This document shows positions 1 to 20,123 of a stretch of 31,814 nt of DNA, piece after piece. Where the stretch lies: positions 1 through 31,814 of the IMG/VR virus record IMGVR_UViG_3300020472_002797. The stretch is one strand, 5' to 3'. The notes below the pieces were generated by a model that was not told the DNA's origin, did not search any database, and was given only the letters and a program-made list of their open reading frames with translations. Origin of the DNA: a virus. Position numbers and translations under genes: made by a program. Each line of letters begins with the position of its first letter. The stretch's first letter is position 1.

Positions 1-231
1 CATATCGATAAGAGTTCGTGTTTCAGGATTTATATCACTCTCGAATAAACCCTCAACTTCCTTATCCCATCTGTAAATCTTTTTGAGTTTATCTCCATAC
101 AAGGAAACATGAGTTCCATAACTATCTTTTACATATGCGTATTTTTTGAATGGAACCATAACATGACCATTCTTGTCATCCCATATGTGAACTTTTCTTT
201 TTGAACTATCGTAGTAAATATTTTGGTACAA
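1..231 (-). CDS. Family B DNA polymerase (gp43-like), N-terminal 77 residues, runs off the window
   Basis: The first 77 residues of a larger protein; the frame stays open to the window edge. The segment (YQNIYYD near the start, then IWDDKNGH, YAYVKDSYG, GDKLKKIYRW, GLFESDINPETRTL) reads like the N-terminal domain of phage and archaeal-type family B replicative polymerases, in which an 'LFESD..PETR.L' stretch precedes the exonuclease domain. The start is a TTG: an in-frame TAA lies immediately upstream, no ATG is available, and a strong Shine-Dalgarno (AAAGGAG, positions 242-248) sits about 10 nt before it. A sigma-70-like promoter at 262-290 lies between this gene and the glutamine synthetase stop. 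A replicase is expected downstream of the helicase/UvsX/gp32 block. The polymerase motifs themselves are outside the window, so the family call depends on the N-terminus alone. Confidence 0.72.
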   Translation of the reverse strand, partial: MYQNIYYDSSKRKVHIWDDKNGHVMVPFKKYAYVKDSYGTHVSLYGDKLKKIYRWDKEVEGLFESDINPETRTLIDM

Positions 232-261
232 TTAAGCACTTCTCCTTTATTTTCGTATTAG

Positions 262-290
262 AATTTACGAACAAAAAACCTAAAAGTCAA
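262..290 (-). promoter_or_regulatory. Sigma-70-like promoter for the DNA polymerase gene
   Basis: The -35 is TTGACT (285-290) and the -10 is TAAATT (262-267), separated by exactly 17 bp. It begins four bases after the glutamine synthetase stop codon and matches the layout of four promoters at 12.4-14.2 kb (TTGACT, 17 bp, TATATT), although its spacer sequence has diverged. Predicted transcription would start about 25 nt before the TTG start codon. Confidence 0.7.
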
Positions 291-293
291 GTA

Positions 294-1280
294 TTAACTG
301 CAGATTGTTTTGATTAATTTTTGTGAAACGACATAAGGATCACAATTTGATGAGGGTCTTCTGTCTTCCAAATAACCTTTTTTATCTCGTTCTACTTGCC
401 ATGGTATTCTAATAGAAGCTCCCCTATCTGAAACTCCATATCTAAACTCTGTAATACTACAGGTTTCATGTAGACCAGTCAATCTTTTATCATTATCTTG
501 ACCATAGGCGTCAATATGTTCTTGTGGATTTTTTGATAACTTTTCACAGGCGTTTATTATATCATCATAACCACCTTCTTCTCTCATCTCCTTTGTAGAG
601 AAATTGGTATGACATCCTGCACCATTCCAATCACCTTCGACTGGTTTTGGATGTAATGAAACAACAACCTCGTGTTTTTCACAAATTCTTTCTAATAACC
701 AACGAGCTACCCAAAGGTCATCACTCATGTGTATTGAACCACCTGCACCAATCTGATATTCCCATTGACCTAACATTACTTCAGCGTTAGTACCGCAGAT
801 ACTAATACCAGCATCAATACAAGCATTCATGTGTTCTCTTGAAATACTTTCACCAATGTTTCTACCACAATAGTAATCTCCTTGTGGTGGTGGAGTTCCA
901 GTTGAAGGCCAACCATAAGGTCTACCACCTTTGAATAATGTATACTCTTGTTCAAATCCTACCCATTCATCAATACCATCAGGTATAGTTTCTTCTAATA
1001 AATGTCTTGTATTCGATTTATGTGGTGTATCATCAACATTGTATACTTCACACAATACTATTGAAGAATTTTTTTCTAATGGATTGGGATAAACTCTTAC
1101 TGGTTTTAAAACACAATCCGAGCTCTTACCATCTGCTTGTTCAGTAGAACTACCATCAAATCCCCATATTGGGTCGAATCCCCACTCGGGTACTTTTAAT
1201 GGTTCCTTTACAACCTTTGTCTTATACCTTATTTGTGTTGGAGTACAGCCATCCAACCATAAATAATCTAACTTATGCAT
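294..1280 (-). CDS. Type II (eukaryote-like) glutamine synthetase
   Basis: ATP-dependent ligation of ammonium to glutamate, making glutamine. It is 328 aa, close to the usual GSII length. Visible motifs: WGFDGSST (39-46), the ExE metal ligands in FEQEY (109-113), a GWP...PPPQGDYYCG segment (123-139) typical of GSII, NAEVMLGQWEYQ (165-176), GAGCHTNFST (220-229), NDKRLTGLHET (263-273), RGASIRIP (286-293) and LEDRRPSSN (304-312). All catalytic blocks are present, so I expect an active enzyme. I chose the ATG at 1280, which has AAAGGA seven bases upstream, over a TTG 12 codons further up that lies inside the terminator hairpin. It follows the TonB receptor gene, separated by that hairpin. GSII is a cellular enzyme, unusual on a phage, and probably host-derived. 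It could raise the glutamine supply for nucleotide synthesis. Confidence 0.93.
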   Translation of the reverse strand: MHKLDYLWLDGCTPTQIRYKTKVVKEPLKVPEWGFDPIWGFDGSSTEQADGKSSDCVLKPVRVYPNPLEKNSSIVLCEVYNVDDTPHKSNTRHLLEETIPDGIDEWVGFEQEYTLFKGGRPYGWPSTGTPPPQGDYYCGRNIGESISREHMNACIDAGISICGTNAEVMLGQWEYQIGAGGSIHMSDDLWVARWLLERICEKHEVVVSLHPKPVEGDWNGAGCHTNFSTKEMREEGGYDDIINACEKLSKNPQEHIDAYGQDNDKRLTGLHETCSITEFRYGVSDRGASIRIPWQVERDKKGYLEDRRPSSNCDPYVVSQKLIKTICS

Positions 1281-1296
1281 TTTTATATCCTTTGAT

Positions 1297-1322
1297 AAAA
1301 GGGGGATATATTTCAATCCCCC
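1297..1322 (-). terminator. Hairpin between receptor and glutamine synthetase genes, possible terminator or attenuator
   Basis: On the minus strand GGGGGAT pairs with ATCCCCC (7 bp, mostly G-C, 8-nt loop), followed by TTTTAT. It lies 15 bp past the TonB receptor stop and ends next to the glutamine synthetase ribosome site. The U-tract is short, so termination may be partial. No clear promoter lies between it and the glutamine synthetase start. Confidence 0.6.
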
Positions 1323-1336
1323 CTAAGTTTATCATT

Positions 1337-4138
1337 TTAGAAATTAACACTAAGTCCTAAGTTAAAACTTCTTGGTGTTCCAAGAAATACTTCGGCGTTA
1401 TGTGCTAGGTGAAGTTTATCACCATACCCATTATACTTAGAGTTATCTGTTGCGTCTTGTACATATACATCGTCAAGTGCGTTAAATAGATGACCATTAA
1501 GAGTCATGTCAAGTCCTGCAATCTCAGGTAATTTGTAAGACAAATGTAAGTCTAACTTACCATAAGATGGAGTTTTCCATACTTGTGCTCTATCAGCGTC
1601 ACCTTCAACTTCACGAGAATCAGGACTCCAATCGGCATAATGATTATCATACCATCTGTAAAGTCCTTGTACTCTCAATCCTTTGACTGGTTTTAATGTT
1701 AATCCACCAACATAAGATGTTTGTGGCATATCACCAACTTTTAGATTGTTGAGTGCGTATTCATACTCAGTAGATGTTTGTCCAATGATTTGGTTATCAT
1801 CATTGTATTCCATACTTGTATAGTCACCGACAGCGTCTCCATCGAAATACCAATCACCAATACTAACTACGAAATCTAACTCTACCATTTCGTGAAGAGC
1901 AACTTTCGTTTCTACTTCTACTCCACTATGAGCTTGATTTACACCAGTTAAATAAATGATGTCGGTATCACCAGAATCACCTGCTCCAGTTTCAACTGAC
2001 TTGGTAAGGTTTCTATCGTTCCATTTAGTGTTATAGTAACTACCTTTAATAGCAACTAACTCACTACGATACTCTCCACCAACTTCAAAAGAGGTGAATT
2101 TTTCGTTATCAGGATCCGTTGATACATTACCATCGTAATCGATTACATTATCAAGAATTGGTGGTTTTTGAACATAACCACTATTGACGAAGGCTGAAAG
2201 TCTATCGTCTAAGTTGTAAGATGCTCCACCTTTAACTTGAAATGTTGTGATTGGGTCTGAAGTAACTGTTTCAAAATCAACAGCAAAATGGTCGTTGTAA
2301 GAGTATCCAATAGAGGATAATCCACCCATACCATAGAGGTTGAGTTTTTCTGTTGTGTAGTTACCTTGTAGAAATCCACCAATCCAATCAACTGTAGTTT
2401 CGTTGTGATAAGCGATAATATCACCTAACCCAACTTTCTTACCATCAGGTGCGTTATCATCAGCAAAGTCTACATAGTAGTCTCCACCTAATAAATCACG
2501 AACCTCACGAGCGTGTTCTATACCCGCCGTTCTCCAATCAATACCAACTTGAACTTCAAGTTCATCTGATACATCATAGTTTAACTTTGAAATCAAACCA
2601 TAAGTATCTTGTCTATTAATTGAATTACGAAGAATACCAGTTGAACGATTTTCGGTATCACTCCAATCACTATCTATGTTATCAGAATTCTGAGCTATCT
2701 CAGCGTTCCAATCCCACATCCAAGGTGAACTTCCGTACCATGCGTTACTCTCACCTTGTGAATCTAAAGCAACTGCTGGTTTACGAGATACACTACCATA
2801 AGTTCCTGTACCACCACCTGAACCACCACTCCAATATAAAACAGAACTTAGTTTTGTCTTATCATTGATAGTTAAGAAATGGTTTAGATTTACTAATGGT
2901 TTATGAAAGAAGTTTTCTCTTTCATTTAGGAAGTTAGGATTGTACCTATCAGTTGTACGGTCTCCGTACATATACCAATACTGCTGTCCTTTGTAGTCTG
3001 AACTAACATCGGCAACATTTTGGTTGAAGAATCTACCAGCTTCAGTTTCGAACTTTCCATCTACAGCAAAAGCTGATGGGTCGTAACCCACACCATTGGC
3101 CGTAACATCACCAGCTTCATTCAATACTGGATCTTCCCATCCAATATCTGTAGCTAGTTTTTGTGAATAAGTTGCGATATTCTGTTTGTATAGATTCTGT
3201 CCGTGTCGCTGTGGTGCTCCTATTGCATATAACTCAAAACGATTATCCTTATTAACGGCGTAAGAACCACCGACATAATATGCCCATGCGTCTGTCCAAG
3301 TGCCATTGATAAGACCATCACCAGTCTTTCTAACGATGGTTCCACTCAAGGCTAGCTTATCTTTAATGAGGCCTGTATTGTAGTTTAGAGTTGTTTTTAG
3401 GAAACCAGCTTCACCAACTTCTTGTTTGAACTTACCACCTTTCTCCATTGCTGAAGGGTCTGTGATTATGTTCATGGTTCCACCAATTGATGGTGTTGCT
3501 AGATTAACAGCTGATAGACCTCTTTGCATCTGAATTGAAGATGTAGCGTCACCCACTCCATCCCAATTAGACCAATAAACCCATCCGTTCTCCATATCAT
3601 TTTGGGGAACACCGTTTATCATTACTGCAACATTTCGTTGATTGAAACCTCTTACATTAATACGGGCATCACCCGCACCTCCACCTTGTTGAGTAGCGTA
3701 TACACTTGGTGTTGTGTTTAGAATCATTGGAATGTCTTGTGAACCAAGTCTGATTTCCATTTCTTCCTTACTAACATTAGTGTAAGCTACAGGTGTACTT
3801 TTATCGGCTCTCGATGCTAAAACTTCAACATCAGAGAGTTTCAAGGAATTAAGTTCGAGAACGAAATTAATACTTGCTACTTCTTCCCCAACTTTAACTG
3901 ATAAAGTTTGAGATTTGTAACCGATAAACGAAGCTGTAATGTCTACATCTCCAGCAGGGACATCAATAAGGAAGTTTCCGTTATTATCCGTTACCCCACC
4001 TAAGTCCGTGCTTTCAATTACGACATTAGCTCCGACAAGTGGTTGACCTTCCCCACTTACATTACCGACAACTGATTGACCCAAAAGGAAAATCGGCATC
4101 ATAAATGCAAACAGAGAAGTAATTAGGCGATTATTCAT
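1337..4138 (-). CDS. TonB-dependent outer-membrane receptor, full length
   Basis: A 933-aa outer-membrane active transporter, intact without frameshift. Residues 1-21 form a Sec signal peptide (MNNRLI, hydrophobic core, cleavage probably after LLG). Residues ~24-105 are a carboxypeptidase-regulatory-like beta-sandwich (PLVGANVVIE, GVTDNNGNF, FIGYKSQ) typical of Bacteroidota receptors. The plug follows at ~110-230 (INVRGFNQRNVAVMINGVPQ, then GGTMNIIT). The rest is a beta-barrel with alternating aromatic strands and a NFFHKPLVNLNH segment, ending in a terminal Phe (LGLSVNF) as needed for outer-membrane assembly. The start at 4138 has AAGGAG seven bases upstream; the longer frame from 4171 has no such site. 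It sits between class II RNR and glutamine synthetase on the phage coding strand. The substrate cannot be told from sequence. The size is larger than BtuB and closer to oligosaccharide or peptide receptors. Likely acquired from a host. Confidence 0.93.
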   Translation of the reverse strand: MNNRLITSLFAFMMPIFLLGQSVVGNVSGEGQPLVGANVVIESTDLGGVTDNNGNFLIDVPAGDVDITASFIGYKSQTLSVKVGEEVASINFVLELNSLKLSDVEVLASRADKSTPVAYTNVSKEEMEIRLGSQDIPMILNTTPSVYATQQGGGAGDARINVRGFNQRNVAVMINGVPQNDMENGWVYWSNWDGVGDATSSIQMQRGLSAVNLATPSIGGTMNIITDPSAMEKGGKFKQEVGEAGFLKTTLNYNTGLIKDKLALSGTIVRKTGDGLINGTWTDAWAYYVGGSYAVNKDNRFELYAIGAPQRHGQNLYKQNIATYSQKLATDIGWEDPVLNEAGDVTANGVGYDPSAFAVDGKFETEAGRFFNQNVADVSSDYKGQQYWYMYGDRTTDRYNPNFLNERENFFHKPLVNLNHFLTINDKTKLSSVLYWSGGSGGGTGTYGSVSRKPAVALDSQGESNAWYGSSPWMWDWNAEIAQNSDNIDSDWSDTENRSTGILRNSINRQDTYGLISKLNYDVSDELEVQVGIDWRTAGIEHAREVRDLLGGDYYVDFADDNAPDGKKVGLGDIIAYHNETTVDWIGGFLQGNYTTEKLNLYGMGGLSSIGYSYNDHFAVDFETVTSDPITTFQVKGGASYNLDDRLSAFVNSGYVQKPPILDNVIDYDGNVSTDPDNEKFTSFEVGGEYRSELVAIKGSYYNTKWNDRNLTKSVETGAGDSGDTDIIYLTGVNQAHSGVEVETKVALHEMVELDFVVSIGDWYFDGDAVGDYTSMEYNDDNQIIGQTSTEYEYALNNLKVGDMPQTSYVGGLTLKPVKGLRVQGLYRWYDNHYADWSPDSREVEGDADRAQVWKTPSYGKLDLHLSYKLPEIAGLDMTLNGHLFNALDDVYVQDATDNSKYNGYGDKLHLAHNAEVFLGTPRSFNLGLSVNF

Positions 4139-4225
4139 AAATCGTCTCCTTGTTTGGTTATTAGTTGACACATTTTTCTACAGGTGTGTCGTCTGCCTGT
4201 CCGCTTTTTTGTATGTGAAATCTTG

Positions 4226-6235
4226 TTATCCATTCGTGGTATCTTGGTCATCAACATCAGGAAATTCTTCTACATCACAGAAGTCTCCATCACAGAATTT
4301 TTCAATGTTGGCTTCCTCATTACTGATAACACCAAAGGTAAGTTTACCAAGTTTTTTAACTCGTTTATTATATGATTTCTCATCAATAGACTCATAGGGC
4401 ATTTGTGGATATGCTCCAAGGTCATGTCGAGGTAATAAACTTATACCCTTTAAATGGTATTGAAAGTAATTTAATACTTGTGGTATCTCCTTACCTTCTT
4501 TTTCAGGATTGAATGTAACCGTACAACTTACTTGATTGTCTGCCCAATGTCGTTGCATAAAAGCTGCTAAAGAGAATTGTTCCCATATTGAGAGTTCTCC
4601 GACAGTTCTTATTCCTTCTCCGACATCTACTGGAACTTCAACAACCATAGTGGTATCTTCTGAACCAAATGCAGGTTCTACTTTATATCCAGCCTTTTTC
4701 ATAGGTTCTAATAGTTCCGAATGTTTCGAAACCCTAATTCTTCTTGTGTAAAATCTTGATTCAGGATAATGTAATCCTGGTGTAGCACCTGCTAATAGTG
4801 AAACCGTTCCACTTGGTTTAACACTTGTGGTCTTGATTGACTTTGGAATGGCGAACCAATCAGAGTACATTTTGTCCCATTCTTGTATTGTATCATATCC
4901 CTCTTCTAACCAATTCTTCAATGTGTCAATTCCACGATTGGTTATGAATTGTGCTACTCCACTTACACTACATCCGATTCTTCTGTTTCTCAACATTACT
5001 CGGTTTGTATCACTCCAATGAGTCTTACCTAATGTAACTGATTTTGCATAAAGATAAGCATATTTGAGTGTTCTTTTGTAATCTTCTAAATCATCATGAT
5101 TGTCAGGAAAAGTTTCTACCAAACAACATAACTCATATGATTCTAATGTTTGTTCCAAACAAGGATTACCACCCATAGCTCTATGGTCTTTGTTATCTCC
5201 ACCATTTTTCATACGAGAATACTTTCTCATATTTTCTAACCATGCAAATCCTGGTTCTCCGTTGTCTACAATTCTCTTTGATGCCTCTGTATAATCCATT
5301 CCTAACTCAGCAAATATTGAGTTATTTGAAGTCCAACCATATTGGTCTCTATGTGGATTAACTTTATAATTTTTTAAATCTAAATATTCTTCATTATCAG
5401 GATCACCAAATACAATCTCAGCCGTTCTTCTTACATTACCTGCAACTACACACTTTCCTATAAGATTCATAATATCAACAATTGTAGTAATTGTAATTGG
5501 TTCCCCACTATTCTTTTCGAGAACAGAGGTGATACTTTCGTGAACCTCTTGTAGTGGTTCAGGACCACTCGAAACACCACCAAAACCTTTGATTGGTACT
5601 CCAGCTGGTCTTACTATAGAGTAATCAAACTCTAATGGTGCTTGACCATGAAAGTAACTTTCCAAAAGTAGTTTAACAGATTCTACCCAACCTTCTCTCG
5701 TGTCAGGTATTTGAAAGGTTTGTGAATCTCTATCTTTCTCCACTCCCTTTACTACTATTTCTCCAGCACCTTTTGTATCAAATCCAACTCCTACACCCAA
5801 CATACTTGCATCCATAAGGAAACAAAATGGTTTAGCATAGTCTTCTTTTAGTGTCTTCGTTGATACAAATGCACAATTGTTTAGGGCGGCGTATAAACCT
5901 TTTTCTTCTGTGACTGGTGTTCCCATGGCCCACAGACCGCGTCCAGGAGGCAAAAACTTCATCGTAAAAATACGCTCATACATATCTTGAGCACTCTTTT
6001 GAGCTTGCCACGCATTCCACCCTAATTGGTGTGATTCAATCCAATTCTTTTGCATAGTGTAGGTTCCCTCAACAACTCGTTGTACGGTTTCCCACCATCT
6101 TTCATTCTTTCCATTGTCTTTTATTCTTGAATAGGTTCTCATGTAAACCAATTCACCTAATCCATTAAAACCAAAAGGAGCTTTTCTCCGCTTGTATTTA
6201 TTTATAAAATTATCCGATAACTGAAATTTTTCCAT
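4226..6235 (-). CDS. nrdJ: Adenosylcobalamin-dependent (class II) ribonucleotide reductase, monomeric type
   Basis: Reduces ribonucleotides to deoxyribonucleotides using a B12-generated thiyl radical. It is 669 aa, near the ~700 aa of the single-chain class II enzymes related to Lactobacillus RTPR. Key residues are visible: Cys121 in NNCAF, the NPCLE block with Cys359 and Glu361, and Cys370 in ELCC, exactly 11 residues after Cys359 as in RTPR (C408/C419). SGPEPL (~223-228), NVRRTAEI (~267-274), VKPSGTVSLL and DNQVSCTVTF are also class II features. The C-terminal CDGDFC pair (648 and 653) is the redox shuttle. The start has AGAGGAG 4-5 bases upstream. It follows the gp41-like helicase by 77 bp and precedes the TonB receptor by 87 bp. 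Activity depends on host or imported cobalamin. Confidence 0.95.
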   Translation of the reverse strand: MEKFQLSDNFINKYKRRKAPFGFNGLGELVYMRTYSRIKDNGKNERWWETVQRVVEGTYTMQKNWIESHQLGWNAWQAQKSAQDMYERIFTMKFLPPGRGLWAMGTPVTEEKGLYAALNNCAFVSTKTLKEDYAKPFCFLMDASMLGVGVGFDTKGAGEIVVKGVEKDRDSQTFQIPDTREGWVESVKLLLESYFHGQAPLEFDYSIVRPAGVPIKGFGGVSSGPEPLQEVHESITSVLEKNSGEPITITTIVDIMNLIGKCVVAGNVRRTAEIVFGDPDNEEYLDLKNYKVNPHRDQYGWTSNNSIFAELGMDYTEASKRIVDNGEPGFAWLENMRKYSRMKNGGDNKDHRAMGGNPCLEQTLESYELCCLVETFPDNHDDLEDYKRTLKYAYLYAKSVTLGKTHWSDTNRVMLRNRRIGCSVSGVAQFITNRGIDTLKNWLEEGYDTIQEWDKMYSDWFAIPKSIKTTSVKPSGTVSLLAGATPGLHYPESRFYTRRIRVSKHSELLEPMKKAGYKVEPAFGSEDTTMVVEVPVDVGEGIRTVGELSIWEQFSLAAFMQRHWADNQVSCTVTFNPEKEGKEIPQVLNYFQYHLKGISLLPRHDLGAYPQMPYESIDEKSYNKRVKKLGKLTFGVISNEEANIEKFCDGDFCDVEEFPDVDDQDTTNG

Positions 6236-10790: not shown

Positions 10791-10834
10791 TCGATATTCT
10801 CCTTATGTTTTATGTTTAATTTGTTAATTATTAA

Positions 10835-10859
10835 TTGTCATTGGTATGACCTTTGACAA
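10835..10859 (-). promoter_or_regulatory. Dyad/hairpin at the predicted 5' end of the gp32-like mRNA
   Basis: A 25-nt near-perfect dyad: TTGTCA pairs with TGACAA, then a 2x2 A/A internal loop, then GGT pairs with ACC around a CAT triloop. It lies just downstream of the -10 element, so it would be the first structure in the transcript. About 45 nt of unstructured A/U-rich leader then runs to the Shine-Dalgarno. It could be an RNA site for autogenous control or a DNA operator. Confidence 0.55.
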
Positions 10860-10862
10860 ATA

Positions 10863-10891
10863 TAAATATAACCCTTTGATAAAAAAATCAA
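10863..10891 (-). promoter_or_regulatory. Promoter for the gp32-uvsX-helicase operon
   Basis: The -35 is TTGATT (10886-10891) with a 17-bp spacer and -10 TATTTA (10863-10868); a TATATT two bases closer is the alternative -10. It lies between the ncRNA terminator and the gp32-like gene, where the next transcription unit must start. Confidence 0.55.
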
Positions 10892-10969: not shown

Positions 10970-11301
10970 AAATAAATTGGAAAGTTAGGGAATACAGACA
11001 CACCCTTCTCATCTTTTAATTCTGTAAAGATACTTTCCAAAAATGAAAATTTGGGGATGTAGGGTTTGCGAATACCTACAACTTTCAGACTCAGATTTTT
11101 TCTACCTTGTACCTAACACCCAAAAGCTACTTTGGTTCTCCTCAATGATGGTTAGTCATCGTCAAAGTGAGTACAACCTCTGTGCCATTACCTTAACTCT
11201 CTGAGTTTAGTTTATTCGGTCACAAGATGGGATTTCGGTTTTACCCTTACCCATAACAAGGTCTAAGAATCGCTGTTCTTATATTTATCTGAAAGTACAT
11301 T

Positions 11302-12760: not shown

Positions 12761-12783
12761 ATTATCCCCTTTTATCATACCAT

Positions 12784-12812
12784 AATATACAAAGAATATT
12801 TGATAAAGTCAA
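12784..12812 (-). promoter_or_regulatory. Early-type promoter (copy 3)
   Basis: The -35 is TTGACT (12807-12812), the -10 is TATATT (12784-12789) and the spacer is 17 bp (TTATCAAATATTCTTTG). The TGA stop of the 161-aa gene upstream lies inside the -35 hexamer, so coding sequence and promoter physically overlap. Confidence 0.85.
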
Positions 12813-13294
12813 GTGTTTTTTTCATTTTTTTTAATTTTTTTATCATACCAAGGTTTATAGTGTTCGTGAAGTTTGTTCATATAGACTAATTGTTTCTTAG
12901 TCAAACCACCCCACTTCTTGGCTGATTCTTTCATTGATAACATAACATTTAATTTATAACCAAAACCAACATCAATCCTACCACCTTCACAAAACCTTAT
13001 CATCTCTTCTAATTTATCCAACTTGGGTAAGTTTCTATCCAACCATAGTTTTTTCTTTTCCACACCACTAACTGAGTTATCTTGTATAATCTTTTTAATG
13101 TGATGGTGCATCTTTGGTGTTATTTTCCTACCACCTGTTACGGCTTCATACATTGATTTTGTAAAGTCATCGGCAGTTCCACTATTGATGATTCTTTCCA
13201 ATTCGAATATTTCAACTGAAAATTTATCTTTATTTATACCAATCCACTTTTTGATGGTTTCAGGTTTTGGTTTTTTATAATAGTGTGGGTACAT
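12809..13294 (-). CDS. Unknown 161-aa basic protein
   Basis: Begins MYPHYYKKPKPETIKKWIGI with a TAATG overlap onto the preceding gene; its ribosome site is weak, so coupling is likely. The chain is helical and basic, with MHHHIKKIIQDN in the middle and a C-terminal KWGGLTKKQLVYMNKLHEHY segment. The latter resembles the 'LT.KQ...L..L...Y' helices seen near the ends of several phage proteins of unknown role. The last residues (IKKNEKNT) are encoded by the A-tract and the -35 of the next promoter. No function assigned. Confidence 0.75.
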   Translation of the reverse strand: MYPHYYKKPKPETIKKWIGINKDKFSVEIFELERIINSGTADDFTKSMYEAVTGGRKITPKMHHHIKKIIQDNSVSGVEKKKLWLDRNLPKLDKLEEMIRFCEGGRIDVGFGYKLNVMLSMKESAKKWGGLTKKQLVYMNKLHEHYKPWYDKKIKKNEKNT

Positions 13295-14170: not shown

Positions 14171-15007
14171 TTACTTTTTATTGTGGATTAGGTCGAGGGC
14201 TAATTGGTGTGAGAATCTTCCAGCCTTAGGGCCTCCGTTGACCCTACCATCACTTTCACCAGGTACCTTTACCCAAAGATATGCATCTACGATTTCATCG
14301 CAGGTTTTTGTGGTGGGATATTCTCCGATTGAACGACCAAATGGATTGAAATGTTCTGAGTTTGCCCCATTACCATTTCTTGATGTGTCGATAACAAAGT
14401 GTGTGTTATCAAGTCTTTTTGAAATCTTTTTACCATAATCATAACAAGTGGTTGTTGCATAATAATTACTCGTGTTTAACGCAAAACCCTTTACCTTGTG
14501 TACATCACATAGAGTTAGATAACTAACGGCCTTTGGTACTGATAACCAAGTGGGATGACCGATATCAATGTAGACTAAAGCATTAGTTCTACTTAATAAT
14601 TCAATTGAAGCCTTAATCAAACTCATTCTATCCATTCCATCCACCACACCCATTTGTTCCATATGTGGAATACAATCAGGCTCATATATTACTATTGGAC
14701 TTCTATCACCTATAGCATCACAAAATTCTTGAATGAATTCTAAATATTCATCAGTAGTATCTGCACCACCCTTTGAATGATGTCCTAAATCTCTATTTGG
14801 GATTGAATAAATTACTATAACAGGTAGGTAGGGATGGGCTCTTTTGAGTAATCTTTTTATTGATTTTTTAGTTTTTCGTATGTTTCTTTTGGGGCCTACA
14901 CCATACCAAAAAGCTATCGGTTCTTTTGTTATTTGTTTGATTTCAGGATAATCTTCACAGACATCCTTTCGACTATTCCAGTCAGGATAATAAAACCTAT
15001 AATTCAT
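14171..15007 (-). CDS. Glycoside hydrolase family 6 (endoglucanase/cellobiohydrolase-like)
   Basis: GH6 enzymes hydrolyse beta-1,4-glucans with inversion. The 278-aa protein carries every core block of the family in order: IPNRDLGHHSKGG (69-81, Asp73 like Asp175 of Trichoderma Cel6A), IYEPDCIPHM (107-116, Asp111 like the catalytic acid Asp221), YIDIGHPTWL (146-155), GFALNTSNYY (~174-183), FVIDTSRNGNG (204-214) and WVKVPGESDG (245-254, Asp253 like Asp401). It is a bare, compact catalytic domain: no signal peptide, linker or carbohydrate-binding module. The ATG directly follows the TAG of the upstream gene with no good ribosome site, implying re-initiation. Without export it must act in the cytoplasm, leave at lysis or ride on the virion. 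A host exopolysaccharide or cellulose-like polymer is the plausible target. Confidence 0.88.
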   Translation of the reverse strand: MNYRFYYPDWNSRKDVCEDYPEIKQITKEPIAFWYGVGPKRNIRKTKKSIKRLLKRAHPYLPVIVIYSIPNRDLGHHSKGGADTTDEYLEFIQEFCDAIGDRSPIVIYEPDCIPHMEQMGVVDGMDRMSLIKASIELLSRTNALVYIDIGHPTWLSVPKAVSYLTLCDVHKVKGFALNTSNYYATTTCYDYGKKISKRLDNTHFVIDTSRNGNGANSEHFNPFGRSIGEYPTTKTCDEIVDAYLWVKVPGESDGRVNGGPKAGRFSHQLALDLIHNKK

Positions 15008-18955: not shown

Positions 18956-19459
18956 CTATCTAAATTTTCTGATGGATTCGTGTTCCCAATTGAACCAATC
19001 CAAAACCTCTCGTTGACTTCTATAACAATCTAACAATTCACCCTTTGTTTTAATCATGTCACTATCTAACTTCTCACCTCTATCAAAACACCAAAGTAAT
19101 TCAGGTCTAAGATGAGCTAAAACATCATGACAACCTCTATGTCTTGGATGACCATACTCTCCGTTTTCACCATGTGTTACAATCTTTTTGTAATCTCTTT
19201 CCCTTAATACCCTTAATAGTTCATAGATTAACTTTTCTCTAAAATAGTCCTCTTTACCCTTATATCCAGTCCAATGTTCATATTCATTGATACCAATAAA
19301 TCTCATACTATCTAAGAACTCTCTTCGTCTTATATCATTATGATATTCATCTAAGACTACAACCTTATATTCATCAGGATGACTAAGTAATTCCGCACCA
19401 CCAAATAATGCCTCATCATCAGGATGTGAAACAATCATGATTTTGTCTATTTTATTCAC
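18956..19459 (-). CDS. PIG-L/LmbE-family N-acetyl-glycan deacetylase
   Basis: Zinc hydrolases of this family remove acetyl groups from GlcNAc-containing substrates. The 167-aa protein has the signature HPDDE (12-16) after IMIVS and the late zinc-site region THGENGEYGHPRHRGCHD (95-112). It is shorter than many family members but both metal motifs are present. I chose the GTG at 19459: GAGG lies nine bases upstream, and it overlaps the nagB stop by eight bases. The longer frame to 19528 lies within nagB and adds no PIG-L-like sequence. Its partner is NagB, immediately upstream, so an amino sugar is the likely substrate; other PIG-L clades deacetylate bacillithiol or mycothiol precursors or antibiotics. 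Confidence 0.88.
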   Translation of the reverse strand: MNKIDKIMIVSHPDDEALFGGAELLSHPDEYKVVVLDEYHNDIRRREFLDSMRFIGINEYEHWTGYKGKEDYFREKLIYELLRVLRERDYKKIVTHGENGEYGHPRHRGCHDVLAHLRPELLWCFDRGEKLDSDMIKTKGELLDCYRSQREVLDWFNWEHESIRKFR

Positions 19460-20123
19460 TATAAAATACCTCACAATTTGAATGTTCTTGTAAAAGTGAA
19501 GCTGGGATATCATCGGTAATATCACCATAAACAGCTTCTTCTAAAATTTCTTTTTTATGTTTACCTACTGCAACTAAATATATCTTTTCGGCACCCAAAA
19601 TACTTGACATTCCCATTGTGTATGCCTGTGTGGGAACATCTTCAATGTTTTCAAAAAACCGACTATTATCCTTTATGGTGTTTTCTGTCAAATCAACTAT
19701 TCGTGTAGATGAGTATTTGTGTGAACCTGGTTCATTAAAGGCTATATGTCCATTGGTTCCAATTCCTAATATTTGAATATCGATTCCACCACTATTTTTA
19801 ATCATCAAATCATATTCATTATAATTTTCTTCGGTTGGAAAATGGTGTGTTCTGAAATTTAAATTACTGAACAAATGTTTGTTCATAAAATATTGGTAAG
19901 ATTGGTCATGATGTTTATCAATTCCAACATATTCATCAAGATTAAAAGTTATTGTATCACCGAAATTTGTGTTTCTCATTTTACTGAGTTTTTCATAGAT
20001 ACCAATTGGTGTGGAACCAGTAGCAAGTCCTAAAACAACATGACTTTGGTGTTTTACTTTGTCACGAATATTACTTGATATTAAATGACAAACTTTTTCG
20101 TAAGTATTACTCCTAATCCTCAT
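19452..20123 (-). CDS. nagB: Glucosamine-6-phosphate deaminase
   Basis: Converts glucosamine-6-phosphate to fructose-6-phosphate and ammonium, reversibly. The 223-aa protein has the phosphate-binding GLATGSTP (32-39), NLDEYVGI with the catalytic Asp (61-68), the signature GIGTNGHIAFNEPGS (120-134; His126 and Glu131), TMGMSSIL (169-176) and PASLLQ (207-212). The family's second Asp (GxDGH in E. coli) is Asn here; many short NagB proteins carry the N variant. It is short compared with the E. coli enzyme (266 aa), lacking the C-terminal allosteric tail. It overlaps thyX by 11 bases at its start and the PIG-L gene at its end, so the three are one operon. It can feed sugar carbon into the host and release ammonium for glutamine synthetase. 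Confidence 0.92.
   Translation of the reverse strand: MRIRSNTYEKVCHLISSNIRDKVKHQSHVVLGLATGSTPIGIYEKLSKMRNTNFGDTITFNLDEYVGIDKHHDQSYQYFMNKHLFSNLNFRTHHFPTEENYNEYDLMIKNSGGIDIQILGIGTNGHIAFNEPGSHKYSSTRIVDLTENTIKDNSRFFENIEDVPTQAYTMGMSSILGAEKIYLVAVGKHKKEILEEAVYGDITDDIPASLLQEHSNCEVFYSE

Follow-up and report, generated by a model that had tools for sequence, protein, structure and literature searches.

Phages of a marine T4-like myophage lineage carry, directly behind the gene for a class II ribonucleotide reductase (RNR), an intact gene for a TonB-dependent transporter that appears to descend from Marinimicrobia, and the leader of this gene contains an RNA pseudoknot that is newly described here. Because nearly every copy of the receptor gene has its own conserved pseudoknot, the receptor appears to belong to the regular equipment of these viruses and not to be there by accident. 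We consider it rather probable that the product is a captured transporter, encoded by a near-core gene, that sustains or raises uptake by the host during infection and is subject to post-transcriptional control.

The gene lies in the window, that is, the whole stretch of DNA that was analyzed (a 31,814-base linear virus record), whose features are listed in Table 1. The preliminary description of this DNA had read from it a full-length, intact 933-aa receptor with a signal peptide, a CarboxypepD domain, a plug, a barrel, and a terminal Phe, and the sequence, the Pfam matches, and an AlphaFold2 model all bear this out. The N-terminal signal peptide is hydrophobic, the protein ends in ...LGLSVNF, and its Pfam matches are CarbopepD_reg_2 (3.5e-17) and Plug (2.6e-13); no barrel model matched the protein in the Pfam scan. 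The AlphaFold2 model, built from 69 aligned relatives, comprises a complete plug and barrel (mean pLDDT 83, pTM 0.79), and its nearest solved structures, found by Foldseek and VIA-align, are TonB-dependent transporters over residues 100-933. Two hallmarks of such transporters, a plug inside a C-terminal outer-membrane barrel and a terminal aromatic residue, are present (Pfam, model, and sequence). With regard to a TonB box, a linker (residues 101-118) with an invariant EVLASRA is conserved in both phage and host receptors. Against the SusC/RagA model TIGR04056, the receptor scores 70 bits, below the cut-off of 368. A SusCD pairing was rejected, as no SusD lipoprotein partner was found among the scanned proteins of the window or among the neighboring genes that were scanned at four host loci. 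The open frame extends upstream to a GTG at position 4171, yet this codon was rejected as the receptor start because it sits within the 3' strand of the leader pseudoknot.

Table 1. Features of the receptor locus in the window (receptor parts are given in amino acid residues, all other positions in nucleotides of the window)
Feature	Position	Strand	Details
T4-type family-B DNA polymerase, N-terminus	1..231	-	Cut by contig end; recognized via full-length homolog in L008
GlnII-type glutamine synthetase	294..1316	-	Optional neighbor downstream of receptor
Terminator-like hairpin, strong	1293..1334	-	Right after receptor stop; -18.6 kcal/mol, z -2.65
TonB-dependent receptor/transporter CDS, 933 aa	1337..4138	-	ATG 4138, stop 1337-1339
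Receptor parts	about 1-20; 25-106; 113-230; 234-933		Signal peptide; CarboxypepD-like; plug; barrel, with C-terminal Phe
Shine-Dalgarno AAGGAG	4146..4151	-	Serves ATG 4138; basis, sequence
Leader H-type pseudoknot	4167..4204	-	Covariance model 65.4 bits
Pseudoknot stems	S1 4200-4196 with 4184-4180; S2 4190-4185 with 4172-4167	-	
Pseudoknot loops	L1 4195-4191; L3 4179-4173	-	L1 CAGAC; L2 0 nt; L3 AGAAAAA
Adenosylcobalamin-dependent (class II) ribonucleotide reductase	4226..6235	-	TIGR02505, 361 bits, above cut-off; invariant upstream neighbor

Profile matches, together with the polymerase homolog in L008, place the receptor between RNR and glutamine synthetase and near the DNA polymerase, just as had been described; besides RNR, the region around it encodes ThyX and, in some cases, glutamine synthetase. 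The window also encodes gp32, UvsX, and DnaB (profile matches), PolB is encoded in L008, and a 130-kb contig, G248, carries the receptor together with the gp23 capsid protein, the tail sheath, and the tail tube. Because these genes are joined on G248, the receptor-bearing phages are assigned to the T4-like myophages; no cultured member of the group was found. Relatives of the glutamine synthetase that are 51-52% identical to it occur in megaphages of 635-735 kb, and in one phage two tRNA genes come straight after the receptor (L077, positions 12767-12916). Elsewhere on the minus strand, the window encodes a glycosyl hydrolase of family 6 (14171-15007; PF01341, 3e-46), which is unusual for a phage and has no obvious signal peptide, as well as a PIG-L de-N-acetylase and a NagB-like glucosamine-6-phosphate deaminase whose genes overlap (18956-20123) and form a small amino-sugar module.

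A protein scan of IMG/VR returned 328 stretches that encode a relative of the receptor, a count that is a lower bound and includes nonindependent assemblies from overlapping samples. Among the best 80 of these 328, which are 72-97% identical to the receptor, the RNR-then-receptor order was found in all 75 loci that have upstream sequence (glutamine synthetase stands between the two genes in 3 of the 75), and contigs with this order reach 130 kb. A second scan was seeded with the reductase, so its sample is not biased toward the receptor; it yielded 70 relatives with enough downstream sequence, of which 61 carry the receptor at the same site and 9 lack it. On a tree of 111 reductases, from loci that came partly from the receptor and leader searches, the presence and absence of the receptor amount to 5 changes, with the absences scattered and nested among the carriers. 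One receptor-less lineage (L210, L215, L224, and L244), a single clade in the RNR tree, retains the leader; at positions 7880-8010 of L215, the pseudoknot leader and ~11 receptor codons are left, the rest of the gene is deleted, and the next gene is unrelated. Given the scattered absences and this remnant lineage, the history of the receptor is best fitted by one gain and later losses.

The gene is clearly of host origin, which would also be expected of an assembly chimera or of randomly packaged host DNA, but the probability of either is negligible: the identical junctions in many assemblies rule them out, the leader RNA is found only in phages, and the gene has evolved inside phages for long enough to be represented by 96 distinct coding sequences with pairwise identities down to 61%. 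Neither of the objections that the preliminary description had raised against its own reading, a break or chimera at the edges of the gene and absence from related phage assemblies, materialized, and the insertion that it had proposed to seek in related phages is the one counted above in 61 of 70. Fecal "Bacteriophage sp." entries with TonB-dependent receptor (TBDR) matches were set aside; in the record examined (L376, MT837128), the open reading frames read as bacterial genes, including one for a RadA-like repair protein, and the record is probably mislabeled host DNA.

In the phage loci, the gap between the reductase stop and the receptor start is about 40 to 100 nt long and holds a conserved element. 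An H-type pseudoknot was recognized in 120 of 121 distinct phage leaders, with 4-5 pairs in stem 1, 5-6 pairs in stem 2, 0 nt between the stems, a CAGNN loop in most leaders, and an A-rich loop, mostly of 7 nt; the distance from its end to the ATG is 24-39 nt, mostly 28-31. Across 60 distinct cores, pairing is retained in 98.2% of cells and two-sided changes are seen at 6 of 11 pairs (29 cells). Stem 1 varies among ACAGG/CCUGU, AUAGG/CCUAU, and ACUGG/CCAGU, and stem 2 varies among GACACA/UGUGUC, GACGCA/UGCGUC, and GGCACA/UGUGCC. None of 500 shuffles came up to the real cores in pairing, in two-sided changes, or in covariation score, and the signal vanished when the partners were slid. Single-sequence folding of the leader (z -0.5) gave no pseudoknot because the program does not predict such structures. 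The leader pseudoknot is supported by covariation. It could not be assigned to a known RNA family, as no Rfam family was reached (the best, DUF2815 RNA, scored 17.9 bits against a gathering threshold of 41.2), and it is a candidate for a new one. The preliminary description, while right about an intact receptor in a genuine phage, had missed this conserved leader RNA.

The covariance model detects the pseudoknot once per contig in all 6 long receptor-bearing phage contigs and in neither of 2 long receptor-less ones; searches of further loci, receptor-less or from hosts, did not turn it up. It is also absent from all 75 cellular receptor leaders. The 245 Marinimicrobia genomes, for each of which 27 candidates were scored under stricter filters that weak matches might escape, produced a single partial match, which is short. 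When IMG/VR was scanned with a DNA pattern that was independent of the receptor, no pseudoknot was immediately followed by an intact gene other than the receptor; the exceptions are cut off at locus ends or belong to the remnant lineage. Just upstream of the pseudoknot, TTCACATAC (window 4211-4219, minus strand) recurs in many phages; the rest of the window and the 130-kb contig show no enrichment of it, and it was for that reason rejected as a genome-wide promoter. Many loci have a recurring TATACTTATTA-like element, a hairpin, and a UUAA-rich linker before gp32 (about 10800-10890 in the window, minus strand), possibly the promoter and autoregulatory leader of that gene itself. A manA RNA (RF01745, E 1e-14) is located about 260 nt upstream of gp32 (window 11054-11255, minus strand) and is found in L037, too.

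The nearest cellular proteins of the phage receptor are those of Marinimicrobia (SAR406), which have the same domains and are 57-65% identical to it by best segment and mostly 60-68% identical over the full match. Phylogenetically, the phage receptors group as one clade inside the Marinimicrobia orthologs (SH-aLRT 100), which provides the donor that the preliminary description had hoped to find in a TonB-receptor phylogeny. The receptor of one Marinimicrobia metagenome-assembled genome (L081; positions 986-3736 of L383) nests within the phage clade; restricting that clade to phages is rejected (p-AU 0.0175). This gene, known from a single 4.3-kb contig, has cellular surroundings, with a second receptor gene beginning in tandem with it, and may have been transferred from phage back to host. 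Orthologs of the receptor (E<=1e-180) are present in at least 89 of 244 Marinimicrobia genomes, with one strong copy in nearly all carriers. Unlike the phage copies, these genes are chromosomal, their leaders have no pseudoknot, and in the loci examined they stand alone, without SusD or telling neighbors. The ancestry of the receptor is what suggests Marinimicrobia as the hypothetical host of these phages; comparison of contigs of the receptor-bearing group with Marinimicrobia genomes gave only weak, nonspecific matches.

Over 107 phage pairs of moderate synonymous divergence, the dN/dS ratio of the receptor is 0.14 overall, 0.05 in the plug, 0.12 in the modeled strands, 0.15 in the modeled surface loops (whose boundaries, taken from the predicted model, are approximate), and 0.31 in the N-terminal CarboxypepD domain. 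The phage receptor is under purifying selection, surface loops included. Such strong selection across the whole protein, with ratios well below 1, makes it highly improbable that the protein is a neutral passenger of a selected leader RNA, as one might suppose from the lineage in which the leader outlasted the gene; this lineage forms only one clade, and in the DNA-pattern scan the leader never stood immediately before an intact gene other than the receptor. Between the 96 phage and 18 Marinimicrobia sequences, the only consistent differences are one residue and two one-residue gaps, and no longer indel consistently separates the two sets. Judging from these sequences, the phage receptor seems to have retained its host job and not to have been remodeled.

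TonB-dependent receptors are well-known phage receptors, and the structural neighbors of the model include FhuA bound by T5 pb5 and by the exclusion lipoprotein Llp. The phage protein might therefore replace or dilute the host version, so that competitors adsorb less, or debris-bound receptors might alter adsorption; we regard this as unlikely. A receptor that escapes binding is expected to differ at the surface, and the conservation of the modeled loops, where dN/dS gives no hint of diversification, counts against remodeling, as does the lack of consistent differences between the phage and host proteins; moreover, no accessory exclusion gene was recognized beside the receptor. Of the two roles that had been proposed initially, boosted uptake stays the leading one, whereas competitor exclusion or altered host range is little supported, given the host-like residues and conserved loops.

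Vitamin B12 was tested as the imported compound because the adjoining reductase is AdoCbl-dependent and BtuB ranks first among the structures compared by VIA-align (Z 38.0 versus 36.0 for the next family). An importer of B12 would serve the phage's own reductase, in keeping with the adjacency of the two genes in all 75 testable loci among the best 80 of 328 relatives. However, a VIA-align Z that is higher by 2 to 3 is too little to identify a substrate, and the Foldseek ranking does not favor BtuB. In Marinimicrobia, a cobalamin riboswitch is present in 11 of 14 genomes, mostly at a locus with a different CarboxypepD-type protein (TBDR-like by sequence reading), and none was found beside the orthologs of the phage receptor; in addition, 9 of 70 phages have the same RNR without the receptor. 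For these reasons B12 is disfavored as the substrate, and its import for the reductase is quite doubtful.

The preferred reading remains a captured transporter that supports uptake in the infected cell. A marine T4-like myophage lineage acquired, apparently once, a single-copy, stand-alone TonB-dependent transporter gene of Marinimicrobia, which has stayed near-core in it, immediately after the class II reductase. As no promoter-like site was found on this strand in the reductase-receptor intergenic space and a strong hairpin follows the receptor, the simplest reading is read-through from the reductase combined with separate post-transcriptional control. The receptor would be read through from the reductase operon in the early or middle phase, and after export its product would be placed in the membrane by the Bam machinery of the host and energized by the host TonB. 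Import of a limiting compound might then persist or rise as host gene expression declines, with the imported compound feeding nucleotide and protein synthesis, and the pseudoknot would tune how efficiently the receptor mRNA is translated or how stable it is, independently of the cotranscribed reductase. The fact that 9 of 70 relatives live without the receptor gene has been counted against an importer.

For the control step, a possible counterpart is the mRNA of T4 gene 32, in which a pseudoknot upstream of the start codon and an A+U-rich stretch leading to the ribosome-binding site are bound by gp32 (PMC3014915); upon inspection, the T4 sequence has the matching layout of an H-type pseudoknot followed by an A/U-rich stretch. 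The receptor leader resembles this operator in its H-type pseudoknot, with 0 nt between the stems, upstream of an unstructured A/U-rich stretch that runs into the ribosome-binding site. It differs in sequence and in the gene that it precedes. The likeness is one on paper and membership is not claimed, as the receptor pseudoknot is missing from the gene 32 leader of these phages themselves. In its most likely form, the pseudoknot would be bound as an operator by an RNA-binding protein of the phage or the host, in a position like that of the T4 gene 32 operator. With a low probability, it could instead represent a new class of phage riboregulator, a ligand-sensing switch that reads the receptor substrate or a downstream metabolite, making viral nutrient import feedback-controlled.

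Host-derived uptake genes retained by lytic marine phages include the auxiliary metabolic gene pstS of cyanophages; pstS-type genes encode a periplasmic binding protein, whereas here the product is a full outer-membrane gated channel. Phage outer-membrane importers were previously known from a few megaphages, in single sentences. A TonB-dependent SusC receptor was reported in the marine megaphage Mar_Mega_1 and in LR745206, where it was proposed to boost uptake (PMC9723777). These precedents, which likewise involve a complete TonB-dependent transporter in a marine phage, correct the statement in the preliminary description that no established class of phages is known to carry such a receptor, although LR745206 has a TBDR of another family; in the present case, a large lineage of T4-like phages has the receptor as a near-core gene. 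The receptors of LR745206 and LR756501 look like members of that other family, captured separately, because they are shorter (660-681 aa), lack the CarboxypepD domain, and match ours at about 30%, mainly over the plug region; they also lack the pseudoknot. A BFVD entry from an uncultured marine phage, "TonB-dependent receptor SusC," is a structural match at 12% identity. PHROG 5687 may be a TBDR-like phage family, since its profile matches the plug region of the receptor (120-140 residues align). The literature searched, mostly outside subscription journals, yielded no paper on a phage lineage with this TBDR as a near-core gene or on this RNA.

A near-core importer in a widespread T4-like lineage, tied to Marinimicrobia by ancestry, would mean that these viruses put resources into the surface of the cells they infect, with a bearing on the flow of nutrients through infected cells in the ocean. 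The ancestry of the receptor also makes it possible to name a hypothetical host for these phages, of which no cultured member was found, and its covariation-supported pseudoknot provides a test case for post-transcriptional control in phages.
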